This document shows, in pieces, positions 741 through 41,061 of a stretch of 52,228 nucleotides of DNA. Position 1 is the stretch's first letter. Each line of letters begins with the position of its first letter. The DNA comes from a virus. Under the pieces are notes generated by a model, which was given only the letters and a program-made list of their open reading frames with translations, made no database searches and had not been told where the DNA came from. The translations under genes were made by a program, and so were the position numbers. The DNA lies in IMG/VR virus record IMGVR_UViG_3300020472_000038, positions 1 through 52,228 of that record. One strand, written 5' to 3'.

Positions 741-773
741 AAAACTAGTGGGAGCTGAATAAGTTCTCACTAG
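741..773 (-). terminator. Hairpin terminator between gp32 and the minus-strand tail block
   Basis: A 10-bp stem with two G-T wobbles (CTAGTGGGAG at 745-754, TTCTCACTAG at 764-773) encloses a 9-base loop. Read on the minus strand it is followed by TTTT, as in a Rho-independent terminator, and the tape measure stop codon (770-772) lies inside its 5' arm. On the plus strand it follows gp32 but lacks a U tract, so it may only protect the gp32 mRNA end. Confidence 0.55.
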
Positions 774-3616
774 CCATTCTGTAGTGCTCTTACTGTGGAT
801 TCATTAGTTCTTGTGGGTTCGGGCATAGAAACTGCTGTAGTTTGACTACTTTGTACACTATTATCTACATTATTATTGTTGATGATAACTGGTTGTCCAC
901 CACCAGTTCCTGCTAATGCATTTTCTTGTGACTTATTAACAAGGGTCGTTGCTTTCTGATTTGCGAGTTCACCTTGTACAAAAGTTCCCTCTGTCAAACC
1001 GGCCTTCTTCAATTCTAAAGCCTTACCTCTCATCCCTGCTATTTTCTTCGCATTTCTAATTTTGGATCTGTCTACTTTACCCTTAATATTATATTTTGCT
1101 TTTAACTGCGCTTTAGTCATACCTTCAGCATATATTTCATCATCATCGGGTTGTTCTGCTATCCTCTTTGCAGTTTTAGTCAGTTCAGCACCAGAAGCAC
1201 TTTGTAACGCAGCATTAATTGTAGTAGCATCTATTCTTTTGAAGGATTGCATTCCTTCACCTAATGCCTTTATTCCTATAGCAACTTCTTGTAAATGTTT
1301 TGGATCTTTAATCTTTTCAGTGGCCATACTTAGTGCACCAATGAAAGATTCAAATGATGTTTCCTTGCCAGGAGTCCAATTATTTCCAACTATTGAAGCC
1401 ATATCTAAGCCGGAAAAGGTGTCCATTGCTTTTCCTAATGGTGTTAAACCATCTGCAACCTTTTGCATCTCTGCAGGTGAAGCCATTTGACCCAATTTTT
1501 CTGAACTTAAAAGATCAAAGAAAATTTCTAATGTTGATTTACCAAAAGTACTTTCATCAACTATCTTGGCAATATCTACACCAGAAAATCCAGACATTGC
1601 TTTACCAAACGGGCCGAGTCCTTCAGCAAGATTGTTCAAATTATCTGCATTAATTTTAACTTTTGAATCTCCTATCTTGGCTATAACCTTAATAAAGGAT
1701 TCTATATCAGTATCACCACCAAAGAAACCACCTTTCATTTCAAAACCAGCAAATGCAGATATTCCCTCTCCTAGAGGCCCCAAGCCTTCTCCAAGTTGTT
1801 TTAATCTTGCCGCATCAATATCTTTATCTTTTGATAATTCAATTATCGTATCAATAGGACTTTTAACACCAAAGAAAGAACCAAGGCCTTCCATAACCCC
1901 ACCAATTACACCAAGAATACTTCCAACTCCAAAGGCAGCAATTCCCGCACCTATACCTGCAATTCCTTTACCAAGATCAATTAATTTATCTGAATCAAGG
2001 TCTTTTAATTGTTCAAACATTCCTTTACCGATGCCACCAATGAAGCCACCGATACCTTGTCCAAGATTAGTAAGAAGGCCTTTGAGTGCACTACCATCTA
2101 AACCTATCATTTTTCCTATTGCTGCAATTCCTTCAGCTGCAAGTAACCCCAAAGAAAAAGCTGAAATACCGGCACCTATTGCACCCATACCCAAGACCGC
2201 GACCTTCACTCCTGCAGGCCCAGCAAACCCAAGAGCACCCGCAGCTACCAACAATCCTCCAAGTACTGCAACACTTATTCCTGAAAATGCTTCAAAGGTG
2301 TTTGAAAGTAATGTATTAAGAGACTTACCATCCAATCCAATCAAAGCACCAAGTGATGCAAATCCTTCAGCTGCAAGAATACCAAGTGTGAAAGCAGCAA
2401 CACCACCACCTATCGCGCCCATACCTTTCATAATAGCTTTTACTCCACCTTTTACTGCACCAACAGCTACTCCACCTATCAACAATGCCCCAAGAGCTTT
2501 AGAATCCACTCCACCAAATGCACCAAAAACATTAGTCATCAATGTAGCAAGATTTTTTCCATCCAATGCAATTAAATCTCCAAGTTTTGCAAATCCTTCA
2601 GCTGCAAGAATACCAAGAATAAAAGCAGCAACACCACCACCAATTGCACCCATACCTAACATCACTCCTACTTTACTGACTTTGAACTTTTCCAATCCGA
2701 TAGCAGCTCCTATAATTGAAGCCATAACTACCAAATCAGTTCCAGAAAATGCACCAAAGACATTCTTTATAAGTGTATTCAACATCTTACCATCGAAACC
2801 CGCAAGTTCAGCTATTTTACCTGCACCTCCTAGTGCTAATATGAATGCACCAACACCAGCACCAATTGCAGTCATACCTAATACTACTCCTGCTTTGGTG
2901 GTTTTAGTTTTTTCCAATCCTACAGCAGCTGCTATAATTGAAGCCATAACTACTAAATCAGTTCCAGAAAATGCACCAAAGATATTCGTTACAAGTGTAT
3001 TCAACATCTTACCATCAAATCCTGCAAGTTCAGCTATTTTACCTGCACCTCCTAATGCTAATATAAATGCACCAATACCAGCACCTATTGAACCCATACC
3101 CAATATCACTCCTGCTTTTGTGGTTTTGGTTTTTTCCAATCCTATAGCAGCTCCCATTACTGCTGCTAGAACCACCAAATCAGTTCCAGAAAATGCACCA
3201 ATGGTATTTTCTACAAGAGCCTTTAAGGATTTACCATCAAAACCCGCAAGTTCAGCTATTTTACCTGCACCTCCTAATGCTAACATAAATGCACCAATAC
3301 CTGCAGCGATTGATCCCATTCCTATAATAAAACTCGGGCCAATCTTTGATACCGCCTTACCTATTGAACCAATACCAGCACCAATACCACCGAGAAGTCC
3401 TGCAATTAATCCACCTTGTTTTTTATCTGATTGAACTGCACCACCAACACCCGCCTTGAGAGTAGCAAGGATATCCTGTTGGATTTTCTTACTTTCTTTC
3501 GCGTCTCTTGCAGCTTCTTGTTCACGTTCTATATCTGAAGAATCTTTCTTTACAGGTTTTTTAAGAGTAGTGTCTATTGTTTTTAACGATTCAACTACAT
3601 CTTTTAAGTTTGCCAT
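770..3616 (-). CDS. Probable tail tape measure protein (gp29 position), repeat-rich
   Basis: 948 aa. The N-terminus is charged and helical (about residues 1-60, with EREQEAARDAKESKK), then a long Gly/Ala-rich hydrophobic helical region, about 85-540, holds roughly six copies of a 74-78-residue unit (GMGAIGAGI-AF-LG... GKIAELAGFDGK... NxFGAFSG). A second repeat family (LAEGLGPFGKAM-FSG-D, about four copies) follows to about residue 800, and the end is Asn/Gln-rich. Assignment rests on position: it is the first gene after gp26 and its frameshift extension, which matches the chaperone-then-tape-measure order of many tailed phages, and on its length and helical repeats. T4 gp29 is about 590 aa. 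At the usual 0.15 nm per residue, a fully extended helix would span about 140 nm. I found no direct T4 gp29 motif, so another tail protein is possible. Confidence 0.7.
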   Translation of the reverse strand: MANLKDVVESLKTIDTTLKKPVKKDSSDIEREQEAARDAKESKKIQQDILATLKAGVGGAVQSDKKQGGLIAGLLGGIGAGIGSIGKAVSKIGPSFIIGMGSIAAGIGAFMLALGGAGKIAELAGFDGKSLKALVENTIGAFSGTDLVVLAAVMGAAIGLEKTKTTKAGVILGMGSIGAGIGAFILALGGAGKIAELAGFDGKMLNTLVTNIFGAFSGTDLVVMASIIAAAVGLEKTKTTKAGVVLGMTAIGAGVGAFILALGGAGKIAELAGFDGKMLNTLIKNVFGAFSGTDLVVMASIIGAAIGLEKFKVSKVGVMLGMGAIGGGVAAFILGILAAEGFAKLGDLIALDGKNLATLMTNVFGAFGGVDSKALGALLIGGVAVGAVKGGVKAIMKGMGAIGGGVAAFTLGILAAEGFASLGALIGLDGKSLNTLLSNTFEAFSGISVAVLGGLLVAAGALGFAGPAGVKVAVLGMGAIGAGISAFSLGLLAAEGIAAIGKMIGLDGSALKGLLTNLGQGIGGFIGGIGKGMFEQLKDLDSDKLIDLGKGIAGIGAGIAAFGVGSILGVIGGVMEGLGSFFGVKSPIDTIIELSKDKDIDAARLKQLGEGLGPLGEGISAFAGFEMKGGFFGGDTDIESFIKVIAKIGDSKVKINADNLNNLAEGLGPFGKAMSGFSGVDIAKIVDESTFGKSTLEIFFDLLSSEKLGQMASPAEMQKVADGLTPLGKAMDTFSGLDMASIVGNNWTPGKETSFESFIGALSMATEKIKDPKHLQEVAIGIKALGEGMQSFKRIDATTINAALQSASGAELTKTAKRIAEQPDDDEIYAEGMTKAQLKAKYNIKGKVDRSKIRNAKKIAGMRGKALELKKAGLTEGTFVQGELANQKATTLVNKSQENALAGTGGGQPVIINNNNVDNSVQSSQTTAVSMPEPTRTNESTVRALQNG
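2657..3324 (-). repeat. Three tandem 222-bp coding repeats inside the tape measure gene
   Basis: The 24-base element that starts with AAATCAGTTCC (plus strand) recurs at 2733, 2955 and 3177, exactly 222 bases (74 codons) apart. The flanking sequence is highly similar over the whole unit. Three further, more diverged units lie downstream in the gene (below 2657 on the map). Confidence 0.9.
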
Positions 3617-3636: not shown

Positions 3637-3834
3637 TTAACTACTAGCTTTACGATTTTGTTCTTCAATCTTAGCATTTTCTTCAAATACCCATTGTGAT
3701 AATAATTCTGAATATAGTGTTCTTTCGTAGGGCAACATATCCTCGATTTCCGTCAAACTCCAATTATGATGTTGGCACATAGCAAAATTTTGTAAATAAT
3801 ATGCTTCAAGTGAGTTATGACTTAGGCAGATGCG
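3637..3834 (-). CDS. Frameshift extension of gp26 (gp51/GT-type tail assembly chaperone tail)
   Basis: This 65-codon open frame is in the -1 frame relative to gp26 and runs from the slippery site to TAA at 3637-3639. It has no start codon near its beginning: its first Met is residue 19 (FAMCQHHNW), with no ribosome binding site. The peptide has a helical, conserved look: NFAMCQHHNWSLTEIEDM, then LPYERTLYSELLSQW and a charged end. The pattern (W...EIE.(M/L)PYER...) resembles tail assembly chaperone extensions such as lambda gpT, made only by -1 frameshifting from gpG. The next gene is the tape measure, the expected partner. It sits where T4 has gene 51, right after 26; I cannot show homology to T4 gp51 by eye. 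The fusion joins residue 232 of gp26 to these 65 residues. Confidence 0.75.
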   Translation of the reverse strand, partial: RICLSHNSLEAYYLQNFAMCQHHNWSLTEIEDMLPYERTLYSELLSQWVFEENAKIEEQNRKASS

Positions 3835-4529
3835 AAAAAAGATGCAAGGCCCTCTAAAGTTTCCGTTTCAGTCTTTCCACACTTTGGACAAGTATACTCA
3901 ATATCCTGTTTCAGTTTTGGTAAAGATTCATAATAATCTTGAAGCTTTTTAAATTGACTAGAATTTAATGAATTTACAAACTCATCTAATTCTTTTTTAG
4001 TATGGTCTTGAGCAGAAAATACGTCTTCACCTTGAATAATTTCAAGTAAACTATTTCTAATTATTTCCATAACTAAGTCTATTTGATTTTTATTTTCAGT
4101 TCCAATAACATCATCTATACCTGGCGGACTCAAACGAACCATAATATCATCTGTTATTTCTACTAAATCAGAAGAATTTTTATTTTGAACCACCTCTACT
4201 TTAGAAAGGTCTATATCAACTTTAATGATTTCACCACATTCGTGCTCAAAAGAAATTGTACTTATATCTCCAACTGCTTTTCCTCTAATGTTAAGAAAAA
4301 GATATTCAAGGTCAATCATTGCAATGCTATTAACATTAAAATTTTCAGTTAATACACATTGAGTTATTATTTGTTTTATGGCTTTCGCCATATCTTTTTC
4401 TTCTCCACCCTCTAAAGCTGTTAGAAGAATTTTTTCTTCCTTGACTAAAAATGGTCTGTATTCAATTTTTTTACCAGATGCCGGTAATTCTAAATCATAT
4501 CGTACAGTATTTAATTTTGGCAAAGCCAT
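3822..4529 (-). CDS. 26: Baseplate hub assembly/tape measure chaperone, gp26 family (T4_baseplate)
   Basis: 235 aa. It resembles the T4_baseplate (gp26) family of marine T4-like phages: an N-terminal LPASGKKIEYRPFLVKEEK strand region, the motif IDLEYLFLNIRGKAVG, and a C-terminal CPKC pair. With the HEC motif near residue 90 the CPKC could form a small zinc site (inference). gp26 is needed for hub assembly but is not a major virion component in T4. A good Shine-Dalgarno (AAGGAG) lies 7 bases before the ATG. The last codons (GCA TCT TTT TTC GCA TCT GCC TAA) contain a canonical -1 slippery site, so a longer gp26-51 fusion of about 297 aa is predicted from the same start. It lies in a minus-strand operon between the tube-fold protein and the tape measure. 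Confidence 0.82.
   Translation of the reverse strand: MALPKLNTVRYDLELPASGKKIEYRPFLVKEEKILLTALEGGEEKDMAKAIKQIITQCVLTENFNVNSIAMIDLEYLFLNIRGKAVGDISTISFEHECGEIIKVDIDLSKVEVVQNKNSSDLVEITDDIMVRLSPPGIDDVIGTENKNQIDLVMEIIRNSLLEIIQGEDVFSAQDHTKKELDEFVNSLNSSQFKKLQDYYESLPKLKQDIEYTCPKCGKTETETLEGLASFFASA
3834..3840 (-). promoter_or_regulatory. -1 ribosomal frameshift slippery heptamer T_TTT_TTC with upstream SD-like stimulator
   Basis: In the gp26 frame the mRNA reads U UUU UUC, the canonical X_XXY_YYZ heptamer: tRNA-Phe in both sites re-pairs with UUU after a one-base slip. An SD-like AGAGGG (3850-3855) lies 9 bases upstream, close to the spacing of the stimulator in E. coli dnaX. Downstream I see only a weak 4-5-bp stem (AAGU/ACUU), so no convincing pseudoknot. 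The gp26 stop is four codons after the site. Confidence 0.75.
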
Positions 4530-4563: not shown

Positions 4564-5106
4564 TTAGTTAAGTAACATCCATTTTCTATATTTGAATGTT
4601 ACACTAAGTTTTAGTATTTCTCCTCCCATCGCGTGACCCAGCGCAATTTCACCAACTGCAGAAGGATATGCTTCTCTCAACTCTATCTTATAACTGTCTG
4701 TTGCTGTTTGAAAATCAGTTGCATCATTTGATAATCTAGTTATATTAATTGTTGAAACAAAATTGTTCCAATAGTTAACATTACCAGTTTTAACATTTAT
4801 TATATTTCTTTGCCATCTGTCAAAAAACCTTTTTACAGTAAATTTATCATCTAAAATAAAAGATAATGCAGCTTCTGTAAATGTTTCCCTATAGGGTATT
4901 TCTCTTGGTGGGCCATATATATCCTGTGCATTAGAAGCTATACCTTTAGTTGGAAGTGAAACAGCTTCACATAGATATTGTAAATTCTCGTTTACAGCTG
5001 TTGACAGTCCTTGAGGAAGATCGCTGAAGGTTACTTGATATCTATTCCCTTTAGCAAAATCATCAATTCTACTTCTTAGTGTATCTATTGTAAATACATC
5101 TGCCAT
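4564..5106 (-). CDS. Tail-tube-fold protein (gp19/gp54-like baseplate tube subunit)
   Basis: 180 aa, close to T4 gp19 (163 aa). The layout matches the T4-type tube fold: NRYQVTFSDL near residue 20, a CEAVSLPTKGI strand where gp19 has CKATALPAGI, a RETFTEAALSFILDDKF strand with FFDRWQ where gp19 has VDWQ, then REAYPSAVGEIAL matching gp19 GLWPTNVGELQL, and a closing LSVTFKYRKW matching VTLALDYW. gp54, which starts the tube on the baseplate, uses the same fold, and the main tube gene of T4-like phages normally sits beside the sheath gene (18), outside this window. A first-tube-ring or hub role therefore seems likelier than the main tube; this is inference. The ATG overlaps the upstream stop by one base (TAATG), suggesting translational coupling. 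Confidence 0.65.
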   Translation of the reverse strand: MADVFTIDTLRSRIDDFAKGNRYQVTFSDLPQGLSTAVNENLQYLCEAVSLPTKGIASNAQDIYGPPREIPYRETFTEAALSFILDDKFTVKRFFDRWQRNIINVKTGNVNYWNNFVSTINITRLSNDATDFQTATDSYKIELREAYPSAVGEIALGHAMGGEILKLSVTFKYRKWMLLN

Positions 5107-5705
5107 TAATAGTATTCCCTGCTGTCATTCCAGACAACACTTTTCTTCTGTTTTTGAAATCTTTCAACTGGTAGGAATATTGCTATTTCCCACTCGTCTG
5201 CGTTTATCCTTACGGTATTTGAACGTATATTAGTACCAAGATATCTTTTTACACAAGGTACTGCTCTTCCAAATCCCTTCAGTAAATTATACGTTATTTT
5301 CAATCTTGTAGTTGCATCATATTTATTATTAGTTGCATACTCTTTCAATTGATCCATAAGGATTGCTCTATCTCTTGGTGGAATATAATGTAGATTCAAA
5401 CCATAAAATCCACCTTTAGCTTTCTCAAATGGAAACACTAAAGGATACATATCCCAATAAGGTAGTTTTTTAGCAAACTTTGGGTCATATTTGTAGAATA
5501 ACATTTTTCCAAGTGTTGCACTACCTTCTTCTTCTCTTTTAAGAAGTTGTGTTGGAGTTACTGCTCTCATACGAGCACTTGCACTTGCTTGTTTGACCTT
5601 TTCTCTAAACCAATCCCCAGCTGCCCTAGCTTTTGCAGTTGCTTTTGAGGTTTTAATTGATGATTTGAGTGTATCTAAAAAACCTTCTTGTGATAATTGT
5701 GCCAT
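5106..5705 (-). CDS. Conserved virion-assembly protein of unknown function
   Basis: 199 aa, not confidently recognised. The N-terminal 60 residues are Ala/Lys/Arg-rich and helical (KTSKATAKARAAGDWFREK). The rest looks globular: LFYKYDPKFAKKLPYWDMYP, then GGFYGLNLHYIPP, ILMDQLKEY, KRYLGTNIRSNTVRIN and DEWEIAIFLPVERF. There is no signal peptide or membrane segment. It sits between gp4 and the tube-fold gene, so a head-tail completion or hub role (slots of T4 2, 3 or 28) is reasonable but not shown. It starts 4 bases after the gp4 stop with no clear Shine-Dalgarno, so it may depend on translational coupling. Confidence 0.55.
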   Translation of the reverse strand: MAQLSQEGFLDTLKSSIKTSKATAKARAAGDWFREKVKQASASARMRAVTPTQLLKREEEGSATLGKMLFYKYDPKFAKKLPYWDMYPLVFPFEKAKGGFYGLNLHYIPPRDRAILMDQLKEYATNNKYDATTRLKITYNLLKGFGRAVPCVKRYLGTNIRSNTVRINADEWEIAIFLPVERFQKQKKSVVWNDSREYY

Positions 5706-5709
5706 AATA

Positions 5710-6153
5710 CTAATATTTAGTTAAATCTTGTTCAGTTAATATTTGCCATTTCCAATTTCTGGTTTCACAGTAAGCCATAGCTGCTTTCCACTTTGCTTCA
5801 TTAATTCCCCAAATTTTGACCTCTTTGATAAATCTTCTTCTATTTGGTTTTGGTTTGGGTGGTTTAGTTTGAACCTTTGATTTGATTTCTATAAGAGTTT
5901 CACCTTGTGCAGTCTTTACCCAAAAGTCGGGAAAATAACGATGGACTTTACCATCTATAGGAGAACGATAGGGGATAACAATCTCTTCACTTGACCACTT
6001 TAAAATAGAATCATTACCATCAAGATACCTCATGAATCTCAATTCCAATCCAGAGCGATGAACTATTTTACGGTAATCTCCTTTGTATTTGGATATGTTT
6101 TTTGGTTTATATAATCCTTTCTTGATCCTCATATAAATATGTAGTAACGGCAT
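5710..6153 (-). CDS. 4: Head completion protein gp4 (gp50), PD-(D/E)XK-like fold
   Basis: 147 aa from the ATG at 6153 (a second ATG at 6132 would give 140 aa and begin MRIKKGLYKPK). It matches T4-type gp4: KPKNISKYKGDYRKI, RSGLELRFMRYLDGN, EEIVIPYRSPIDGKVHRYFP, then DFWVKT and LIEIKSK. The PD-F...E-I-K arrangement is the PD-(D/E)XK nuclease-like signature seen in this family, which is thought to trim or guard the DNA end when filled heads are completed. It is the first gene of the minus-strand block, just below a TATAAATT box at 6177-6184. The start is uncertain: no strong Shine-Dalgarno is present, only GGGCGG about 5 bases before 6153. Confidence 0.85.
   Translation of the reverse strand: MPLLHIYMRIKKGLYKPKNISKYKGDYRKIVHRSGLELRFMRYLDGNDSILKWSSEEIVIPYRSPIDGKVHRYFPDFWVKTAQGETLIEIKSKVQTKPPKPKPNRRRFIKEVKIWGINEAKWKAAMAYCETRNWKWQILTEQDLTKY
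6132..6139 (+). promoter_or_regulatory. T4-type late promoter (TATAAATA) for gp48 and downstream hub/wedge genes
   Basis: Exact TATAAATA, the T4 late promoter -10 box read by the gp55 sigma factor. The predicted start is near 6146, giving a leader of about 48 bases to the gp48 ATG (Shine-Dalgarno AGGA at 6184-6187). The box lies inside the 5' end of the opposite-strand gp4 gene. Confidence 0.75.
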
Positions 6154-6176
6154 AAAACCGCCCAAATAGAATTTTT

Positions 6177-18155: not shown

Positions 18156-20048
18156 ATGGCCGATGTAGCTTCTAAACTTAAAGTATCCGAATTAGATTTC
18201 GATGCTATTAAATCAAATCTTAAAAATTTTTTAGGTGATCAAAATGAGTTAGCTGATTATAATTTTGATGGTTCAGCAATGGCTGTTCTTATGGATCTTT
18301 TGGCTTACAATACTCATTACAATGCATTTTATTTGAATATGATTGTAAATGAGATGTTCCTTGATACGGCATCTCTTCGCAATTCCGTAGTATCTAGAGC
18401 CAAACATTTGGGGTATACTCCCACTTCTGTTAGGGGTGCCAAAGCTTATGTTGATTTAACCATCACTCCTGCAAACACTCCTGCAACGATTGTTATTGAT
18501 AAAGATACACAATTTAATACCACAGTAAATGGTATTTCTTATATATTTTCTACATCTAATTCTACTACTTTAAATGTCAACTCAAATGGTATATACACAA
18601 CAGCTAATGTAGAATTACAACAAGGTATTCTTTTAACACATAGGTATAGCGCAAATACTAATGATCCAGATCAAAGATTTATTTTACCAAATGCTAATAC
18701 AGATACAAGCTCACTTACAGTACAAATACAAACTTCTGCAACTAGTACAAATTTACATACTTATTCAGTTGCAAATGATACAACTTCAATAAACTCTACA
18801 GCTAATGTATACTTTTTAGAGGAAGATACAGATAGTAAATACAGAGTATATTTTGGAGATGATAATATTGGAAGAGGCCTAACAAGTGGTAATATTATAA
18901 TTTTGAAATCTTTAATAGCTGATGCAACTGCTCCAAATGGTGCAAAAACATTTACTCCTGTTGGTTCGGTTGGGGGATATTCAAATGTTACAGTAACGAC
19001 AGCATCGGCTGCAGCCGGTGGAGCAGATAGAGATTCTATTAGTGATATAAAATTTAATGCACCCAAAAATTATCAAGCTCAAAATCGTGCGGTTACAATT
19101 AATGATTATATTAGAATAGTTCAAAGAGATTATCCAGATGCAGAATCCGTCATAGCTTGGGGTGGAGAAGAAAATGATCCACCAGTTTATGGTAAAGTTT
19201 ATATGGCTGTAAAACCAGCTAGTGGATTACAGTTATCAGCTACTACAAAGAATTCTATCAAAAATGATATTTTATCAAAAAGAAATGTAGTCTCTATTTC
19301 AACTGAAATGGTAGATCCAGATTACTTATATTTGACTTTCAATAGTACTGTTAAATATGATTCTTCTAAGACTTCAAATACAGCAGCCACTATTTCAGAT
19401 TTAGTTTCTAATACTGTTTACAATTATGGTGTAGACAATCTTAAAGGTTTTGCAAATGAATTTAGATATTCACCTTTAACCAAAAAAATTGATGAATCTG
19501 AAACTTCAATTGAAAGTAGTCTTTCTACAGTTAAATTAACAAGAGTATTTGTTCCTACTCTTAATGTATCTAGTTCTTATGCTCTATCATATTCAAATGA
19601 AATTTTTCATCCTTATGCTGATTATGTAGATTCCGTTACTAGTACAGAATTTTCTCATTATGATGAAAGTGACACCTTACGAACAACTTGTAATATACAA
19701 GATTCTAATGGGGTGTTACAAGTTTATCGTACATCGGGAACAACAAGAATTATTGTTGCAAACAATGTTGGAACTGTTTCTTATGGTTCGGGTGTAGTCT
19801 CACTTGCTGGATTTAAACCAGTTGTAATTTCAGATGGTACTGCCAATTTATCAATAACTGTTGCATTAGCTTCAAGCGATGTTATTCCTGTCAGAGAACA
19901 AATTTTACTTATTACTAACAATAATATTACAGTATCTATGGTTGATACTTACGGAACAGGCACAAGCACTACTGAAGTGTCTTCTACTGCCAGTGGATCA
20001 ACCGCTGGAGGTACTTCTGGTAGTGGTGGTTCGGGAAGTAGTTACTAA
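18156..20048 (+). CDS. 6: Baseplate wedge protein gp6
   Basis: 630 aa (T4 gp6: 660 aa). gp6 dimers form the ring that holds the baseplate together. The N-terminal helical region is typical (LDFDAIKSNLKNFLGDQNEL, MAVLMDLLAYNTHYNAFYLN, then DTASLRNSVVSRAKHLGYTP). The middle has KYRVYFGDDNIGRGLTSGN, a gp6/gpJ family signature, and FNAPKNYQAQNRAVTINDYI leads to the DYPDAESVIAWGG segment and YGKVYMAVKP. The C-terminus ends in a Gly/Ser/Thr-rich tail (STASGSTAGGTSGSGGSGSS), probably flexible and unusual for gp6. The stop overlaps the gp7 start by one base (TAATG). Confidence 0.92.
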   Translation: MADVASKLKVSELDFDAIKSNLKNFLGDQNELADYNFDGSAMAVLMDLLAYNTHYNAFYLNMIVNEMFLDTASLRNSVVSRAKHLGYTPTSVRGAKAYVDLTITPANTPATIVIDKDTQFNTTVNGISYIFSTSNSTTLNVNSNGIYTTANVELQQGILLTHRYSANTNDPDQRFILPNANTDTSSLTVQIQTSATSTNLHTYSVANDTTSINSTANVYFLEEDTDSKYRVYFGDDNIGRGLTSGNIIILKSLIADATAPNGAKTFTPVGSVGGYSNVTVTTASAAAGGADRDSISDIKFNAPKNYQAQNRAVTINDYIRIVQRDYPDAESVIAWGGEENDPPVYGKVYMAVKPASGLQLSATTKNSIKNDILSKRNVVSISTEMVDPDYLYLTFNSTVKYDSSKTSNTAATISDLVSNTVYNYGVDNLKGFANEFRYSPLTKKIDESETSIESSLSTVKLTRVFVPTLNVSSSYALSYSNEIFHPYADYVDSVTSTEFSHYDESDTLRTTCNIQDSNGVLQVYRTSGTTRIIVANNVGTVSYGSGVVSLAGFKPVVISDGTANLSITVALASSDVIPVREQILLITNNNITVSMVDTYGTGTSTTEVSSTASGSTAGGTSGSGGSGSSY

Positions 20049-23000
20049 TGATAGAAGATGGTGGAATTCTTTATAGTCAGATAGATTCTCAACTCCCTAG
20101 TTTTGTTCAAACTGACCATACGAAATTTTCTAAGTTCATACAGAAATACTATGAATTTCTTGAACTAAATCTTATTACCTTTACAGATTTAGATCTTAAT
20201 GCCGATTCTATTATACAAGAAAAGGCAGATACCACATATACTATAACTGTTGCTACTGGTAATAACGCATTCAGTAATTCCGCAAATAAATTTTATGTTG
20301 ATGGTGCAGTTTCTCCAACCATAACTCTTATTCCTGGCGCACACGCAATTTTTGATCAAGGTGATGAAAATAATGTCGGTCACTATTTTCATATATCAAG
20401 AACACCAGACGGTATTCATACTGCGGGTGGTAAACAATTCACTACTGATGATAGAGAAGATGTTCTTTTTACTTTTGTAGGACAACCCGGCGATTATGAT
20501 AATATTACACTTGAAGCAGAAACTGGAATTTTACTTTATGAGGATTACCTAGACTCTGCCACTACTTTAGATAATCTTACACTTGAAGATGCATCTGGAA
20601 TTTTACTTTATGAAGATGATGTAGAACTTGGTTTTGAGACAACACCCGATAGAGAAATTGGTCTTGAAGCATCTGCTACTATAAAATTTTATGTTTCACC
20701 AGATCTTGCCGGTGAAACTCTCTACTACTACTGTAATAATCATTCTGGAATGGGTGGAAATATTACAGTATCTACAACAACAAGTTATATTTCTCAAGAA
20801 AATGGAAACACCCATTCTGCAAATACCTCTACTGAAGACTATCTTACTCTTGAAAATCCTAATAGACAAGGTGAACAATTTTTAAGTGGGGAAACTATTC
20901 TTGGAGCAAACTCTGGTGCTACAGGTATTGTTAGAGGAAAATATTCAACTACTCAAGCTTTTGTTGAAGAGACAAATCATGGTTCTTTTGAAGTTGGTGA
21001 AACTATTAAGGGTAAAACTTCAAGAGTCACTGCCACTGTAAATTCATATTCCAGACAACCAATAAATGCATCAAGAAATGTAAAAGCTTTCCAAGATATT
21101 GATAAAGCACCAGTTGGTTTTGTTGAACTTTTTAGAAAAGAATTTTTAACTGGATTTAGTAAAAATGATGATATTAATACCCCCAATCTACTTAAACATA
21201 TAAAAGATTTTTATCGTTCTAAAGGTAATGAAAATTCCTTTCGTTTTATTTTTAGTTTACTTTTTGGTATAGATGATGTAGAGTTTTATTATCCTGGCCA
21301 GGATATTATGAGACTTTCTGATGGAAGATGGACTCTTGATAAATCAGTTAAACTTCTTACAGACTCTGCAAGTTATGTAGATTCTTTTCTTGGTAGAACA
21401 ATCGTAGGTCAGACATCTAATGTTTCTGCTCTTGTAGAACGAATTGAAAGATATCATGTTGGAGCACAAGATATTACGGAATTATTTTTATCTGGATTTG
21501 ATGCTAATAACGCCGCTTATCAAGCAACTACAGGAACTAGCTATACTACGTTTTATTTGGGTGAAGTTATAACAGCTAATAGTGCAGACTCTGATGGTAA
21601 TTATGCAACAGCAACTACAAGTGGAGTTTTACAGGGCGTTGATATAGTCTATGGAGGATCTGGCTATAACAAAGGTGATGAACTACGAATTACTGGTGGA
21701 GGTGGTGCAGAAGCCAAAGCTAAAGTTAGTTCAATAGCTGCAGCTGCTCTTACTGGAATTGATGTTATAGATTCGGGAGATGGATATAGTGTAGGTGATG
21801 TAGTTACATTTTTTAATGATGGAACTGGTGGAACTGGTGGTTCTGCTAGAGTTCAAAGTATTGTTAAAACAGTAAATGTATTTACACAAACTGAAGTTAT
21901 TAGTACACAGGGGAGTACTACATTAGACGCAGCTGCATTTACTGCGCCGTGGGGAAGTTATAACAGAAATACTCATAGTTCATCAAACTCTACTACTACC
22001 TTTACTGTTCCATTTGATGGTCTTTCTGGTGGTGATACTCCGAAACAAGGAGATTTTATTGCAAAGTTTGGTAGTGGTGAAAGTATTTCTTTATATACTC
22101 CTGGCACTTCAAAATTTGGTACTGTTATTAGTACGAATTCTACATCTATTACTTATGGATTAGGTTCTATTGATTATACTACATCTTATAATTCAGATCC
22201 AACTCTTAATAATTTTGTAAATAATGATACAGTTGTTATTTTTGATCTCACCAAAGATAAAGATGGTTCTGCAGTAACATCTAATGCATATAACTCTACA
22301 TTCCGCGCGACTGGAGCAACCATTGCTATTAATGGAACACCAACTGCTAATACTGATAGTACTTATCATGGTGCAGCAACAATGCAGGAATCATCAATTG
22401 GTGGTATTCGTTCACTTCAAATAATGTCTTCTGGACAGGGTTATGAGACAATTCCCCCTGTCTCTATAGCAAACACCGAAATAACTTTTTACGATAATTC
22501 ACCAGAAAAGGTTGGTGCAAATTCAATATTTGTTAATCTTGCAAATACAGTTGCAAATATATTTACTTCAAACACTTTAATTAAGAATCAAGGAAACACT
22601 GCCTTTGGTATTCTCCTTGATTATCTTGATCTTGCTTCAACAACTTTAGCTGAAACAGGAAATACCACTCTCAGAATTCAGATGACAAGTGCGAATACAT
22701 TCAGTCCGAATGATGTTCTTACTTCTTATAGTAGAGCTGATAGTTCTCCAAGTGGAATTGGTGTTTTTGGAACTGCAAATATCTCAACATCTGGAACTAC
22801 TGCTACATTCACACAAGCAGATCATGGATTTGGTGCAGGAGATAGAATTGTAATTACTGGTTCTTCATCTGCAACAGATAATACTGTATATAACAACAAC
22901 CATACAATTGCAGGAATTACAAATTCCTCTGTTTACACAGTAACCCTTGCAAGTGATCCAAGTGATGATAGTGAAACCTCTTTAACTGTCAGAAAAATTG

Positions 23001-26000
23001 TTACAGCAAATGTGGTAGCTGATCTATTACTTACTGAAGATTCCACCACTACACAAATATCTTTTGAAAATGGAGTAGGAACTGCAAATGATGATTATAG
23101 TAGTTCTACAAGTAATGGATCTATTATAGTTGAAAGTGGAATAGATGAAGCAAATTCTATATTTGCAAATACTGGAATCCCTGGCAATAACGCAATTATT
23201 CAAGTTTCAAAACTTGCTGTTGGTGCAATTGAAAGTGTTTTAGTTTATGATTTTGGTGCTGGATATTCTTCAGCTCCAACAATTAATGCTTCAGCTGTTG
23301 GAGATGGTTCTGCAACATTGACAGGTAATGTTGGTGTTTATGCAGAATACTCTGGATATTTTGATGGTGAATATGGATTATTGAGTGGTACAAACAAAAT
23401 GCAAGATAACTTGTATTATCAAGATTTTTCCTATGTAGTTAAAACAAATAAAGACGTTAATACTTACAGAGAAAAGATATTAGAATTAGTACATCCAGCT
23501 GGAATGGCTTTGTTTGGTGAAATCTTAATGTCAGCTAACTTGTCTGTTAAATTATTTGATGATGGTACAAGTAACATAAGCAGTACTCAAGCAAATACTG
23601 AGATGGTTGCAAATTCAGTTAATGTTCCACGTTATCATCATCATGAAGTCGAATTTTATACTAAAGACACAACTTCAACCAACAATCAGATTTCAATGGA
23701 AAGGAGTTATGAACTTAAATCATTTTCTACTGAAATAACTATAATTGAAAAATTTGATGTAAACATGGACACTACTGGAGCTAGTAGTGATTTTGATTTA
23801 CAATTAGAACATGGTCATGATTTAATTTCTTTAGAAAATTCTGGTTTTTTCCTTGCAGCTGAAAATACTGGTGAACTTCTTCTTGAACGAGATATTGGTG
23901 GTGGAGTTGGAGATAGACTAATTGAAGAAACCGCGGACTTTTTACTAACTGAAGCCGAAATAGTTCATGTACTTTTAGAAGAAGATTCTAATGATACTGA
24001 TGAAGATATACTTCTTTTAGATGATGGAGAAACAGATAAAGGTAATGCTTCTATTATAGGTGCTTTATCAGACGAAAATCAAAGTGATTCTTCTCCAATA
24101 ATATATGAATTTTTTGAAGCAGAGCTTGGAAATATTCTTACTGAAGATGGTGATGGTATAGGTGTTAATTTAATAAGTACTGATGTTTTAGAAATAGAAG
24201 AATATAATGGTGACTTTATTGTTTTGGATGGTATTAGAGAGTTTGGTTATACATTGTTAGAAGACGGTGGCCAACTTCTTTTAGATGAAGTTACACTTAC
24301 TGGTGGGCCCATTGGATTTGAATCGGGGCGTGGTACAGTATTATTGAATAGTACAGATGGAGCTCCCGGCTCTAATGCTGGGGATCAAATTGTTACTGAA
24401 GATTATACATTTGAAGCAGAGCCTGGTTCTGTATTAACTGAAGATACTGGACTTGAAACTACAGGTGGTGGAACATATCTTGTTCAAGAAGATGAAGCTG
24501 GTAAATTTTCACAGGGATTTAAAATACAACAAGAGGGTGTTTTTACAGCTGTTATAACAGAAGGTCGGCTCGTACAAGAAAATGAGTTTTTTATATTACT
24601 TGAAAACCAAATAGCTTCAGCTGACTTTTCATTATCATTAGAACCTACAACTCCTAATGCATTTTCTGGCCCACAGACAGCTGTATATATGGAATTAGAA
24701 AATTCCATAGGTGGTGATTCTACTGTCAGACCAGATAAAATTTCACATTTTGTTTTAGAAGAAGATGAAGATTTAGTTCAAACTTTAACATTAGAAGATG
24801 GAACTGGTGACATTATATTTGAAAATGGTAAGGGTCATGTCCGTCTTGAAATACAAGGAGTAGCACAAACAGTTAAAATTCGTAATGAAGATGAAGCTTC
24901 AAATTTTAAACTTGAAGACTTTGAATCAGTTCTAGTACAAGAAGAACAATATCAAATTCAACTAGAATCTTATACTCTTCCCTCTCTTACAGATGTGGGA
25001 TTTCTTGTAAAAGAAGATAATGATGCTCTTCATCTTGAAGAAGCTGGTGCATATGATACTGATTCAGATGAGTTTTACGCTACTCACGGCCTCTTTACAT
25101 TTGTCAAAGCCTCAGCTAGATTAAATTCTCAAGATAGTGATATGAGAGATGTGAAGTTTAATAATGATGGAACTAAAATGTTTGCGTTAGGTAGGGGTAA
25201 TGATGGAGTTTATGAATATTCATTATCAACAGCATTTGATGTTTCAACATTGACTTTTGTTCAGAAGTTGGATATAAGTGGTGAAGAGACATCGGCGAAT
25301 AGTTTAGAATTCAATCTAGACGGAACTAAATTGTTTGTGTTAGGTCAATCTGATGATAATGTTGATGAATATGCTTTAAGTACAGGTTTTGATATCTCAA
25401 CAGCCTCCTTTACAGATAGTTTTGATGTAAGTACTCAAGAAACTGCACCTTATGGTTTGGCATTTAATAATGATGGAACTAAAATGTATGTTTGTGGTTG
25501 GAATGGAGATGACATTAATGAATATACATTAACAACTGCATTTGATGTTTCGACAGCATCATATTCTCAAAATTTTTCAATAAATGCTCAACGTGCAAAT
25601 GCATCAGCAGTACAATTCAATGCAGATGGAACTAAAATGTATGTTTTACAGGGCAACCAAAATTCTGATATTTTTGAATACGCACTAGTAACTCCATTTG
25701 ATATTTCAACAGCATCTTATACAAATAGAACTCATGATTTAACAAACGAAGAAAGCAGAGCAAGAGGCTTCTGCTTTAGTAATAATCATTCTCAGCTTTT
25801 TGTAACTGGTTGGACTGAAGATGAGATTAATGAATATACTGTAAATTATACTCTTCCAGATGAATCGGGAGCTGATTCTGGAATAGATGATACCCCCTTC
25901 TATTTTCGTCTTGAGGATGATGTAGATGCTAGAGCTTATCTGTTGGAAGAACCTACAACAATCTATCATAGGATTGAGAGTGAAAATCCAGCTGATGATT

Positions 26001-28471
26001 TTGTTATTGTTACGGATGACGCAGAAGATACTATAGTACTTGAAATAGAAGAATTTATTACTGATACAAATTTTAAAGGTGAGTCTTATGATACTGGAAC
26101 TGGCTTCATGTTACCGATGCTTATTTTTCCAACAGCCGAGTCTGGTTCTGCATTATTGGATCTTAGTTTTACAAGTAGAATAGTATTAGAAATTGATGAT
26201 ATTCAAAATGTAAGATTAGAAAATCAAGATGGTAGTCTTCTTTTAGAAGATGGTGGTGTTGTTTTTTATGAACAGCAACCTACAACATCTGTAGGTTATC
26301 AATATGATATGTTACTTCTGGAAGAATCTGATGGTACAAATCCAGTATTTATTGCTACAGAATCTTCTATGACTGAAGAAATAGATGGTATAGGAGAGAT
26401 TGAATTATTTTCTGATGGTAATTATTCACTTCAGCTTGAAGGTGCACATGGAATTCATGATAATGGACTTCTTGTATATGAAAATGGAGGTTTTACATTA
26501 GAAGCTGGTACTAATGCTGAAGGTGTTATTATTTTTGACGGGCCAACGGCTGATGATGGAGATAGATCTCTTTTAGAAGATGGAGTAGAAGATACAATTG
26601 GAGTGAATCAACCTCAAATTGCGGCATCAGTTAGATCTACAGTTTCAACTTTAAATACTGGTGACACTCTTAATGAAGGAAGTTTTCTTGGATCAGATTT
26701 TGGAGAGAGAACATATGGATCAGTTGCTCTTTCATTGTTACCTAGTGAATTTGAATTTTTGACTGAAGATGGAAAAACCTTTGTTACAGAAGAGAGTACA
26801 ACTAGAAAAGACAATCTTATATCTGAAGCTTATGATAGGGGAATAGTTGCAACAGGAACGGCCACTCAATTTGAATTTGATTTTAATAATCTTATAGTTC
26901 TTGAACCCGATTGGACTTTAGATGTAATTGAATTAGAAGATGGTTTGGGTAAAATAATAGATGAACACGGTTATACTGTTGTACTTGAGATTCAAGCTGC
27001 AAAACCAGAAGTTGGTGTGATTATACTAGAAACCGATACACCAGAAGAAAATTCAATTATTTTAGAATCTGATGACCCCGATGTTATTATTCCTCTTCAA
27101 CAAGAACAAGGAGAAGGTAAAATTTTTACAGAGGAGGATATACACCTATTAATTCCATCTCCCGAAAGACTTTGTGGTGTTGGACTTCATGATTTAATTT
27201 TAGAAGAAGAGGGCATTCTTCAAGAAGAATCTGACCAAATTAAATTAGAAGATTTTACACTTGATAATATTACTCAAGAAGATCCAGTTATGGGAGATTT
27301 TGTTCCTTATCTTGGATTTGGAGATGAGGGGGATAATTCTATAACTATAGATGATAATATGTTATTAGAATCTACAACGCACAAAACTGAAAATGTTTGT
27401 GTTCAGACTGAAGATGGTGATTTGATTGGACAAGAAGATGATGAAACATCTCATATAGTTTTAGAGGATTTTTATTTTAAATATTACAATGTAGGAACTA
27501 TTACTCAAACTGGAACAACCATAACTGTATCTGGAGGCCAATTTCCTTCTGCTGTTGTAAATAGTGGAAGATTTTTCTATGAAAGTGGTACATCATCAGA
27601 TCTTAGTGATAGAAATGGAGTCGAATCAACAGATATTATATCAATATCGGATAGTGGTCTGGAACTAACAGTTGAAGCTTCTAAATCAATAAGTTCTGCA
27701 CAACATTATAAAGTTGAATATGGACTTGATGATACTCCTGTAACCGCTCCAGCAGAATATTTGGTAATGGAAGCTTACACTCTTGATACTACAACTGAAC
27801 AAGTTAGAATTGATATAATTTTTAACGGAGAAGGCGATGTTAATCATGGATATACTAGGGGTGAAGATTCGGATGGTCTTGGAACTTATACTGTAAGTAT
27901 TTCAGCATTTGCTGATATCATAGGAAATGATGTTACATATGAAGATGGAGAAAGGATTTTAGCTGAAGATTCAATTGGTGGATATATTGCTTTTGAAGAT
28001 TCTACTCAAAATGTCTCTTTAGGAATTGCTCATGGAAAAATATTAAATGAAGATGATACTGGATGCTTCATATCAACTGAAGATCATGAAGGTAATGAGA
28101 CAACTCAAGATGATAATGTTCTCATGAAAGAAATGTCGGACGCACTTCTATTAGAAGATAGTGAAACTGAAACTTTGAATTATGTATTGAGTGAGGAAGA
28201 AGGACAAATGATGCTTGAAGATGTATTTCAAGTTTCAGAACATAAAATAATTATGGATAGTCATGATTCTATATTAATAGAAGACCAACCAGACGGTGAT
28301 AATTGGAATTATAAATTATTGAATATGGATATGGGAAGATTTGATATTGAAACAATAGCTAATAATGCATCTATGACTATTCAATTTACTGATTCATCAA
28401 CCAGTTCAACAGATTTTTTCAAACGATCTGATTCTGCCATACTCGTTTCAAGAACAGAACAGATTGTTTGA
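20048..28471 (+). CDS. 7: Giant gp7-like baseplate wedge protein with cupredoxin-like, propeller and LEDG-repeat insertions
   Basis: 2807 aa against 1032 aa in T4. The slot between gp6 and gp8 and the scaffold pieces at residues 1-60 (DSQLPSFVQTDHTKFSKFIQ, KYYEFLEL) and about 350-455 (NLLKHIKDFYRSKGNENSF, then DDVEFYYPGQDIMRLSDGRW) support gp7. The rest is a patchwork: a cupredoxin-like domain (about 62-242), SGETILGANSGATG-type modules, GSGY modules (about 530-610), an ADHGFGAGDRIVITG module (about 930), more than 40 acidic LEDG-type repeats (about 1250-1680 and 1945-2790), and a five-unit propeller-like repeat (about 1685-1935). TREKILELVHPAGMALFGEI-like sequence near 1140-1160 is a conserved marine gp7 segment. 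In T4, gp7 links gp6, gp8 and gp10 at the wedge periphery, so these insertions are probably exposed on the outer baseplate. Confidence 0.78.
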   Translation: MIEDGGILYSQIDSQLPSFVQTDHTKFSKFIQKYYEFLELNLITFTDLDLNADSIIQEKADTTYTITVATGNNAFSNSANKFYVDGAVSPTITLIPGAHAIFDQGDENNVGHYFHISRTPDGIHTAGGKQFTTDDREDVLFTFVGQPGDYDNITLEAETGILLYEDYLDSATTLDNLTLEDASGILLYEDDVELGFETTPDREIGLEASATIKFYVSPDLAGETLYYYCNNHSGMGGNITVSTTTSYISQENGNTHSANTSTEDYLTLENPNRQGEQFLSGETILGANSGATGIVRGKYSTTQAFVEETNHGSFEVGETIKGKTSRVTATVNSYSRQPINASRNVKAFQDIDKAPVGFVELFRKEFLTGFSKNDDINTPNLLKHIKDFYRSKGNENSFRFIFSLLFGIDDVEFYYPGQDIMRLSDGRWTLDKSVKLLTDSASYVDSFLGRTIVGQTSNVSALVERIERYHVGAQDITELFLSGFDANNAAYQATTGTSYTTFYLGEVITANSADSDGNYATATTSGVLQGVDIVYGGSGYNKGDELRITGGGGAEAKAKVSSIAAAALTGIDVIDSGDGYSVGDVVTFFNDGTGGTGGSARVQSIVKTVNVFTQTEVISTQGSTTLDAAAFTAPWGSYNRNTHSSSNSTTTFTVPFDGLSGGDTPKQGDFIAKFGSGESISLYTPGTSKFGTVISTNSTSITYGLGSIDYTTSYNSDPTLNNFVNNDTVVIFDLTKDKDGSAVTSNAYNSTFRATGATIAINGTPTANTDSTYHGAATMQESSIGGIRSLQIMSSGQGYETIPPVSIANTEITFYDNSPEKVGANSIFVNLANTVANIFTSNTLIKNQGNTAFGILLDYLDLASTTLAETGNTTLRIQMTSANTFSPNDVLTSYSRADSSPSGIGVFGTANISTSGTTATFTQADHGFGAGDRIVITGSSSATDNTVYNNNHTIAGITNSSVYTVTLASDPSDDSETSLTVRKIVTANVVADLLLTEDSTTTQISFENGVGTANDDYSSSTSNGSIIVESGIDEANSIFANTGIPGNNAIIQVSKLAVGAIESVLVYDFGAGYSSAPTINASAVGDGSATLTGNVGVYAEYSGYFDGEYGLLSGTNKMQDNLYYQDFSYVVKTNKDVNTYREKILELVHPAGMALFGEILMSANLSVKLFDDGTSNISSTQANTEMVANSVNVPRYHHHEVEFYTKDTTSTNNQISMERSYELKSFSTEITIIEKFDVNMDTTGASSDFDLQLEHGHDLISLENSGFFLAAENTGELLLERDIGGGVGDRLIEETADFLLTEAEIVHVLLEEDSNDTDEDILLLDDGETDKGNASIIGALSDENQSDSSPIIYEFFEAELGNILTEDGDGIGVNLISTDVLEIEEYNGDFIVLDGIREFGYTLLEDGGQLLLDEVTLTGGPIGFESGRGTVLLNSTDGAPGSNAGDQIVTEDYTFEAEPGSVLTEDTGLETTGGGTYLVQEDEAGKFSQGFKIQQEGVFTAVITEGRLVQENEFFILLENQIASADFSLSLEPTTPNAFSGPQTAVYMELENSIGGDSTVRPDKISHFVLEEDEDLVQTLTLEDGTGDIIFENGKGHVRLEIQGVAQTVKIRNEDEASNFKLEDFESVLVQEEQYQIQLESYTLPSLTDVGFLVKEDNDALHLEEAGAYDTDSDEFYATHGLFTFVKASARLNSQDSDMRDVKFNNDGTKMFALGRGNDGVYEYSLSTAFDVSTLTFVQKLDISGEETSANSLEFNLDGTKLFVLGQSDDNVDEYALSTGFDISTASFTDSFDVSTQETAPYGLAFNNDGTKMYVCGWNGDDINEYTLTTAFDVSTASYSQNFSINAQRANASAVQFNADGTKMYVLQGNQNSDIFEYALVTPFDISTASYTNRTHDLTNEESRARGFCFSNNHSQLFVTGWTEDEINEYTVNYTLPDESGADSGIDDTPFYFRLEDDVDARAYLLEEPTTIYHRIESENPADDFVIVTDDAEDTIVLEIEEFITDTNFKGESYDTGTGFMLPMLIFPTAESGSALLDLSFTSRIVLEIDDIQNVRLENQDGSLLLEDGGVVFYEQQPTTSVGYQYDMLLLEESDGTNPVFIATESSMTEEIDGIGEIELFSDGNYSLQLEGAHGIHDNGLLVYENGGFTLEAGTNAEGVIIFDGPTADDGDRSLLEDGVEDTIGVNQPQIAASVRSTVSTLNTGDTLNEGSFLGSDFGERTYGSVALSLLPSEFEFLTEDGKTFVTEESTTRKDNLISEAYDRGIVATGTATQFEFDFNNLIVLEPDWTLDVIELEDGLGKIIDEHGYTVVLEIQAAKPEVGVIILETDTPEENSIILESDDPDVIIPLQQEQGEGKIFTEEDIHLLIPSPERLCGVGLHDLILEEEGILQEESDQIKLEDFTLDNITQEDPVMGDFVPYLGFGDEGDNSITIDDNMLLESTTHKTENVCVQTEDGDLIGQEDDETSHIVLEDFYFKYYNVGTITQTGTTITVSGGQFPSAVVNSGRFFYESGTSSDLSDRNGVESTDIISISDSGLELTVEASKSISSAQHYKVEYGLDDTPVTAPAEYLVMEAYTLDTTTEQVRIDIIFNGEGDVNHGYTRGEDSDGLGTYTVSISAFADIIGNDVTYEDGERILAEDSIGGYIAFEDSTQNVSLGIAHGKILNEDDTGCFISTEDHEGNETTQDDNVLMKEMSDALLLEDSETETLNYVLSEEEGQMMLEDVFQVSEHKIIMDSHDSILIEDQPDGDNWNYKLLNMDMGRFDIETIANNASMTIQFTDSSTSSTDFFKRSDSAILVSRTEQIV
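20231..20773 (+). other. Cupredoxin-like domain within gp7 (residues about 62-242)
   Basis: Strand pattern YTITVATGNNAF, KFYVDGAVSPTITLIPGAHA, IFDQGD, then NVGHYFHISRTPDGIHTAGG, and finally ATIKFYVSPDLAGETLYYYC followed by NNHSGMGGNITV. The C-x2-H-x2-M cluster (Cys229, His232, Met235) with an upstream His (112 or 115) copies the ligand set of type I copper proteins such as plastocyanin. Between the ligand-bearing halves (about residues 150-200) sits an insertion of two LEDG-type repeats. Copper binding is inferred, not shown. Confidence 0.6.
20523..20613 (+). repeat. Paired 19-base direct repeat inside the gp7 cupredoxin-like domain
   Basis: CTGGAATTTTACTTTATGA occurs at 20523-20541 and again at 20595-20613, exactly 72 bases (24 codons) apart. 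It encodes the repeated GILLYED strand of two tandem LEDG-type units (LEAETGILLYED and LEDASGILLYED). Confidence 0.85.
23800..25080 (+). repeat. First block of acidic LEDG-type repeats in gp7
   Basis: Short units of the form (hydrophobic)3-LE(D/E/N)-x-G recur every 10-25 residues. Examples: LISLENSGFFLAAENTGELL, DILLLDDGE, ILTEDGDG, TLLEDGGQLLLDE, LVQEDEAG, LTLEDGTGDIIFENGKGHVR, LHLEEAG. Alternating hydrophobic and acidic residues predict stacked short beta strands. Confidence 0.75.
25099..25850 (+). repeat. Five-unit beta-propeller-like repeat in gp7
   Basis: Each unit reads FN-DGTKM-V-G---D-(I/V)-EY-L-T-FD(V/I)STAS. The GATGG/GACGG core lies at 25166, 25319, 25472 and 25625, exactly 153 bases (51 codons) apart; a degenerate fifth unit (FSNNHSQLFVTGW) follows 159 bases later. 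Length and the DG-turn-strand pattern are like YVTN/WD40-type propeller blades. Confidence 0.75.
25890..28440 (+). repeat. Second block of acidic LEDG-type repeats in gp7
   Basis: About 850 residues with the same unit as the first block, for example FRLEDDVDARAYLLEEPT, VRLENQDGSLLLEDGGVVFY, LQLEGAHGIHDNGLLVYENG, IELEDGLGKIIDEHGYTVVL, DLILEEEGILQEESDQIKLE, VLSEEEGQMMLEDV and ILIEDQPDG. The block runs almost to the C-terminus. Confidence 0.75.
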
Positions 28472-39235: not shown

Positions 39236-39258
39236 TTTTTTTATTTTAACTATAACAA

Positions 39259-39266
39259 CATAAATA
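39259..39266 (+). promoter_or_regulatory. Late-promoter-like box CATAAATA before fibre B
   Basis: CATAAATA differs from the T4 late box at one base and starts 56 bases before the ATG of fibre B, in a 79-base gap. A perfect hairpin (AAATTAG, AAAA loop, CTAATTT; 39266-39283) directly follows and would form at the mRNA 5' end. Confidence 0.5.
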
Positions 39267-39283
39267 AATTAGAAAACTAATTT
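39266..39283 (+). other. Perfect AT-rich hairpin in the fibre B leader
   Basis: A 7-bp stem with a 4-base A loop overlaps the last base of the CATAAATA box. It has no U tract, so it is more likely a 5' mRNA end structure than a terminator. Confidence 0.4.
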
Positions 39284-39314
39284 AAGACTATTTAACAACA
39301 AGGAATTATAATAA

Positions 39315-40988: not shown

Positions 40989-41014
40989 TAATATGAATCA
41001 TAAATCATGGAAGA

Positions 41015-41022
41015 ACTAAATA
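41015..41022 (+). promoter_or_regulatory. Late-promoter-like box ACTAAATA before fibre C
   Basis: ACTAAATA starts 47 bases before the ATG of fibre C. A second candidate, CATAAATC at 40999-41006, lies 63 bases before the ATG. Either could serve as the late box in this 73-base gap; I cannot decide between them by eye. Confidence 0.4.
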
Positions 41023-41061
41023 TTGTAAGAAGAATTAGTTAACAATAAGGAATTATAATAA

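Follow-up and report, generated by a model that had tools for sequence, protein, structure and literature searches.

A Predicted −1 Frameshift Joining gp26 to a gp51-Like Extension in a Marine T4-Like Virus and Its Relatives

Introduction

The dnaX frameshift of E. coli is stimulated by an upstream Shine-Dalgarno-like element and a 3′ stem-loop and brings translation to an early end, and the slip site of phage lambda is G_GGA_AAG. In the lambda G/GT system, a short protein and a minor −1 fusion act on the tape measure protein, and this frameshift is conserved in long-tailed phages, with T4 as the exception (2016 review, PMC5009743). The gp51 and gp26 proteins of T4 are hub assembly chaperones (PMC3004832). 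Among the tail assembly chaperone (TAC) genes of T4-like phages, separate short and long genes occur in some phages and polyT runs are known −1 sites, according to the PRFect (PMC10885494) and Adele (PMC12846349) papers, both referring to Vladimirov, Gautam and Davidson (2022, Virology 566:9–15).

The stretch of DNA analyzed here (the window) is the 52,228-base marine record of an uncultivated T4-like virus, its virus class being that given by IMG/VR. No near match was found when its first 8 kb were compared with a phage collection by megablast. The locus resembles the T4-like gp26/gp51 genes, as described in papers citing the 2022 study, in protein family (PF12322), in the predicted short/long pair and in the polyT −1 site, but T4 itself has two divergent genes, 26 and 51, whereas the window has one gene and a predicted frameshift. 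With lambda G/GT it would share the short protein and the minor fusion acting on the tape measure protein; it differs in its slip site, and gp26 has no significant sequence or fold match to a solved chaperone. The likeness to dnaX lies in a homopolymeric heptamer, a Shine-Dalgarno-like element about 10 nt upstream and, in relatives, a 3′ stem-loop, whereas the dnaX frameshift shortens its product and the one predicted here would extend it, and the stem-loop of the window is weak.

Results

The gp26-like gene lies within a run of genes on one strand:

5710–6165, minus strand: head-closure gene, first in the gene order leading to gp26
5106–5705, minus strand: DNA end protector, next after the head-closure gene
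4564–5106, minus strand: tail tube-like protein (phrog_45, 3e-27; PF23849, 6e-12), directly upstream of gp26
3822–4529, minus strand: gp26-like gene, 235 aa, a short tail assembly chaperone (TAC-N) by PF12322 and phrog_150
770–3616, minus strand: probable tape measure protein, 948 aa, directly downstream, with 12 hydrophobic segments

The match of gp26 to PF12322 (E = 7e-55) covers residues 10–233 of 235, the domain thus spanning the whole short protein, and phrog_150 is matched at E = 8.7e-58. Near the C-terminus, the motif CPKCGK is a possible Zn-ribbon half-site. The AF2 model of gp26 has a mean pLDDT of 90.5, and a fold search with it against the PDB returned no significant match, the highest-probability match listed being the HK97 tail assembly chaperone (2ob9; E = 3.4, probability 0.23). 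A sequence search against solved structures, chaperones included, likewise gave no significant match. In a viral library searched with Foldseek, the models matched other gp26 proteins and T4-type hub assembly catalysts. We infer the chaperone role of gp26 and gp51 mainly from what is known of the family, and the client from gene order and sequence. The 948-aa protein had no family match in profile searches; of eight relatives, two have a gene after gp26-51 with a match to tape measure profiles. Judged from its position and hydrophobic segments, the 948-aa protein is probably the tape measure protein and the likely client of the chaperone.

Some further features of the window were observed. The 948-aa protein (770–3616) contains repeated glycine-rich hydrophobic units, GAGIGAF...GKIAELAGFDGK...GAFSGTDLVV. 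A very large baseplate-region protein of 2,807 aa (20048–28471) carries many short LLEDG-like repeats, and such motifs recur in the proteins encoded at 37436–39235, 49587–50558 and 50558–51616. Three consecutive genes at 37436–42180 have near-identical N-termini, MSA(N/H)V..(S/T)(E/D)TFDQWR, which suggests a tandem duplication of a fiber-like gene.

At the end of gp26, the slip site described in the first-pass annotation was found in the right frame, followed by a second coding region:

3834–3840, minus strand: slippery heptamer T_TTT_TTC, at the Phe-Phe codons 231–232 of 235, in a frame that suits tandem −1 slippage
3637–3834, minus strand: −1 extension of 65 codons (RICLSHNSLEAYY...RKASS) plus stop, a gp51-like C-terminal domain by phrog_634 (2e-23)

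On the minus strand the gene ends ...GGC CTT GCA TCT TTT TTC GCA TCT GCC TAA, with the TAA at 3822–3824, and an alignment of gp26 shows no variation at F231 or F232. The string TTTTTTC has 20 matches in the window against 26 expected, and in-frame T_TTT_TTN occurs at just 13 sites per 16,509 codons. As TTTTTTC alone is common, the significance of the site rests on its frame, position and conservation.

Loss of the heptamer with both frames intact had been named beforehand as the case that would speak against frameshifting, and nearly all junctions of relatives instead keep the heptamer with both frames open. Of 188 unique junctions taken from viral contigs and phages, 185 carry an in-frame T_TTT_TT[C/T/G] together with a −1 frame that stays open across the heptamer and for at least 100 nt past the stop of gp26, or as far as the contig reaches. 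The 188 comprise 167 junctions with TTTTTTC, 17 with TTTTTTT, one with TTTTTTG and three without the heptamer. In a second collection, made up of contigs binned into bacterial or archaeal genomes, heptamer and both frames were found at 44 of 44 unique junctions. Among 59 viral-contig relatives (33–96% identity), the T run is in phase and the −1 frame open wherever the end of gp26 could be read. Seeding the viral-contig search with Schizotequatrovirus, Menderavirus and Ackermannviridae sequences brought in only two further loci each.

The three junctions lacking six Ts are those of the phiMAM1 type (Ackermannviridae, with its copies), of Vibrio phage K446 and of L241; the phiMAM1 and K446 junctions carry other putative slip sites. 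L241 has five Ts, and the near-identical L240 and L066, Stenotrophomonas phages like it, have six, a one-T difference at the slip site that is possibly a sequencing error or a natural variant.

At the site, codon choice is fixed and not the encoded residues alone. In 40 clusters (60% amino acid identity), TTT is the only first Phe codon found (log10 P −6.9, given the usage of these genes), and the codon before Phe-Phe has T as its last base without exception (log10 P −9.2), these tests counting as independent clusters that are not fully so. The residue ahead of Phe-Phe varies (Asn, Ser, Asp, Ala or Tyr) despite the constant final T, and where Phe-Phe occurs elsewhere in the same genes, it is written T_TTT_TTN in 5 of 158 cases. 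Synonymous diversity in a 59-sequence clade is zero at the three shift-site codons, compared with a gene mean of 0.355, only 4% of the codons in that clade being invariant; in the clade of the window 59% of codons are invariant, and this test is weak owing to too little divergence.

Starting 43 nt ahead of the stop of gp26, the −1 frame runs uninterrupted until its own stop codon at 3637–3639. The 65 residues following the slip, RICLSHNSLEAYYLQNF...RKASS, match phrog_634, a "baseplate hub assembly catalyst" family (E = 2e-23), a comparison in which the gp51 likeness proposed earlier holds up; the model of the extension is fair (mean pLDDT 82). Ahead of the internal Met at extension residue 19, the frame contains no ATG, GTG or TTG, as had been read from the sequence. 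In an alignment of 36 extensions, conserved residues run from the slip site onward, ahead of any Met. The median dN/dS of the extension is 0.14 in the window clade and 0.05 in the 59-sequence clade, with third-position diversity highest in the −1 frame. The extension is under purifying selection and evolves as a protein. Within the window clade it is intact save in L001, where it ends early, and L002, where it is cut by the contig. In none of the 60 best records was an in-frame gp26-51 fusion found, every one requiring two frames.

It is therefore highly probable, on the features of the sequence, that a −1 frameshift would yield gp26 (235 aa) and a minor gp26-51 fusion of 297 aa, the short and long chaperones for the tape measure protein. 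This was the central proposal of the first-pass annotation, and the conserved heptamer, the selected gp51-like extension and the lack of a start in the window clade support it. Most ribosomes translating gp26 would stop at the TAA, releasing the short chaperone, and in a minority the two Phe-tRNAs would slip one base back on T_TTT_TTC into the −1 frame; we infer both the slipping and its rate from these features. Reading through 65 more codons would then give the fusion, with the junction ...ASFF|RICLSH.... The short form would be expected to cover the tape measure protein, the product of the next gene, and the C-terminal domain of the long form would be expected to help recruit tube or hub parts, as with lambda gpG/gpGT.

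The most durable alternative, although still very improbable, is that gp51 is a separate small protein, translated from the internal Met or through reinitiation once ribosomes have terminated at the end of gp26. In public records gp51 is often listed as a gene of its own, and some relatives have TAATG or TGATG overlaps, or an ATG downstream of the stop. The window clade, however, has no start before the conserved part, and neither do 91 of the 185 heptamer junctions; a further 86 have a start without a Shine-Dalgarno sequence. Start and Shine-Dalgarno together, which the first-pass annotation had set against its own proposal, were found in none of the window clade and at eight of the 185 junctions family-wide. 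A separate gp51 would also leave the fixed heptamer unexplained, as well as the conservation as protein of residues that precede any Met. In a few lineages, some separate product may additionally arise by reinitiation, which cannot account for the heptamer.

Two candidate stimulators flank the heptamer:

3850–3855, minus strand: Shine-Dalgarno-like AGAGGG, a possible stimulator, 9 nt upstream of the heptamer
3802–3828, minus strand: weak stem-loop TGC.TAAGT / ACTTG..GCA (−3.6 kcal/mol, z −0.5, not significant), at the site of the stronger stem of relatives

The upstream element stands where it had been reported, and the element and the heptamer, 9 nt apart, are found together at a single place in the window and in none of 100 shuffles. 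Many relatives have AGGG or AAGG 9–10 nt upstream of the heptamer. Around 14% of control sites in the window's own gene match or exceed its strength, and in the median gene its pairing strength falls at the 12th percentile of in-gene controls. Conserved Glu-Gly codons encode the motif, so the element is inseparable from protein constraint; a stimulatory role is plausible.

On the 3′ side, the family as a whole has more stable RNA structure than expected. For 60 nt starting 10 nt past the first base of the heptamer, the mean z is −1.8, compared with about −0.2 elsewhere; windows of 45 nt give a mean z of −1.9 (paired Wilcoxon p = 4e-7), and synonymous-codon shuffles a mean z of −1.7 (p = 7e-5). 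Most relatives carry the stem-loop, with stems that differ by lineage, such as GCCTCT/AGAGGC and GACGGCT/AGCCGTC, and a register that varies by 1–2 nt among lineages. The stem-loop may be a previously unreported stimulator. As the stem of the window is weak, its lineage may use other features. Across the 40 clusters of relatives (for instance in L035, L220, L141 and L071), this position-specific stem-loop directly 3′ of the heptamer exceeds dinucleotide shuffles as well; in the window clade it is weak.

The placement of this structure, as in ribosomal frameshifting, also speaks against a reading even less probable than a separate gp51, namely that mixed mRNAs arise because RNA polymerase adds or drops a U by slippage within the run of Ts. 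A T homopolymer is present, reaching eight at 13 of the 185 junctions, but at 168 of them the run is exactly six Ts, and a run of six is short for bacterial transcription slippage. The run, moreover, holds the one codon phase that tandem tRNA slippage needs. Least probable of all is that the invariant F231 and F232 are kept for protein function alone, over a decayed or chance −1 frame, as codon choice is fixed beyond the amino acids and the −1 frame is open at all heptamer junctions with dN/dS of 0.05–0.14.

Discussion

The predicted ribosomal frameshifting into a gp51-like frame sets the window apart from T4, in which two divergently transcribed PF12322 genes encode gp26 (208 aa, short) and gp51 (249 aa, long). 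The first-pass annotation described T4 genes 26 and 51 as adjacent, and neighbors they are; their divergent transcription was missed, and T4 gp51 is not the extension alone but a full-length paralogue of gp26, having the whole PF12322 domain plus a C-terminal part, with residues 147–246 matching phrog_634. Acinetobacter phage DLP1 has separate short and long genes as in T4, and Bp7 has the same 26/51 pair by annotation. The window, whose 52-kb record may be a fragment, contains one PF12322 gene and no gene pair of the T4 type.

A single such gene at the locus, with the heptamer, is found in Kyanoviridae, Sinorhizobium phage phiM19, Stenotrophomonas phage BUCT608, Vibrio Schizotequatrovirus, Aeromonas phage 65.2 and AsFcp_4, and also in Delftia phage PhiW-14, Agrobacterium phage OLIVR5, Rhizobium phage RHph_I1_9 and a Vibrio jumbo phage. 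In the tree, T4-type 26 and 51 form two well-supported adjacent groups, and their split from the frameshift-type genes has modest support (84/92). The tree fits, but does not prove, a gene duplication in the T4 clade that would have replaced the frameshift.

The Ackermannviridae (L070, L244–L248) have G_GTT_TTC, G_ATT_TTC, A_ATT_TTC or C_CTT_TTT at the same place, 10 nt short of the stop of gp26, and their −1 frame is open and includes a 51-like stretch, so that a frameshift at a different slip site is probable in this family. G_GTT_TTC is the shift site of T7 gene 10. The slip sites of that gene and of the tail chaperone in Vandenendeviridae (G_GTT_TTC, GTTTTT) likewise are −1 sites of the polyT kind in which a phage structural or chaperone gene ends, and are nearer to the Ackermannviridae variant than to the heptamer of the window. 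The next large gene in Ackermannviridae, where annotated, is gp5 and not a tape measure gene.

A broader scheme for the T4 superfamily can be sketched tentatively, though we would give it somewhat less than an even chance. An ancient slip site may have been served by exchangeable stimulators, mostly the 3′ stem-loop, which would have been lost or weakened in the window clade, where the Shine-Dalgarno-like element may substitute for it. The Ackermannviridae would have derived an N_NTT_TTY site, and the T4 clade would have exchanged recoding for duplication.

The 2022 study by Vladimirov, Gautam and Davidson reportedly names T4 genes 26 and 51 and finds frameshifting conserved in several T4-like groups. 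The mechanism and the T4 exception are already known, having been published for T4-like phages (Vladimirov, Gautam and Davidson, 2022, as conveyed by papers citing it), which settles the question of earlier reports that the first-pass annotation had left undecided, and the window is a well-supported new example. Among the papers searched, none combines frameshift with the term "baseplate hub assembly catalyst". Possible additions are the 3′ stem-loop, the variant slip site of the Ackermannviridae and the hundreds of records in which two genes are annotated or the second is missed.

More than 500 phage records contain a relative of the extension, and in the public records inspected, 51 was annotated as an independent gene or omitted. 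The true product in such records is probably the fusion. Among cyanophage records such as ACG-2014i (L064), S-CAM1 and S-SSM4, the 51 extension is unannotated in several and given a doubtful internal start in others.

The 2022 work, as cited by later papers, and the present census agree that relatives of T4 have the frameshift and that T4 swapped in two genes. This offers a natural comparison between recoding and duplication as ways of setting a protein ratio.
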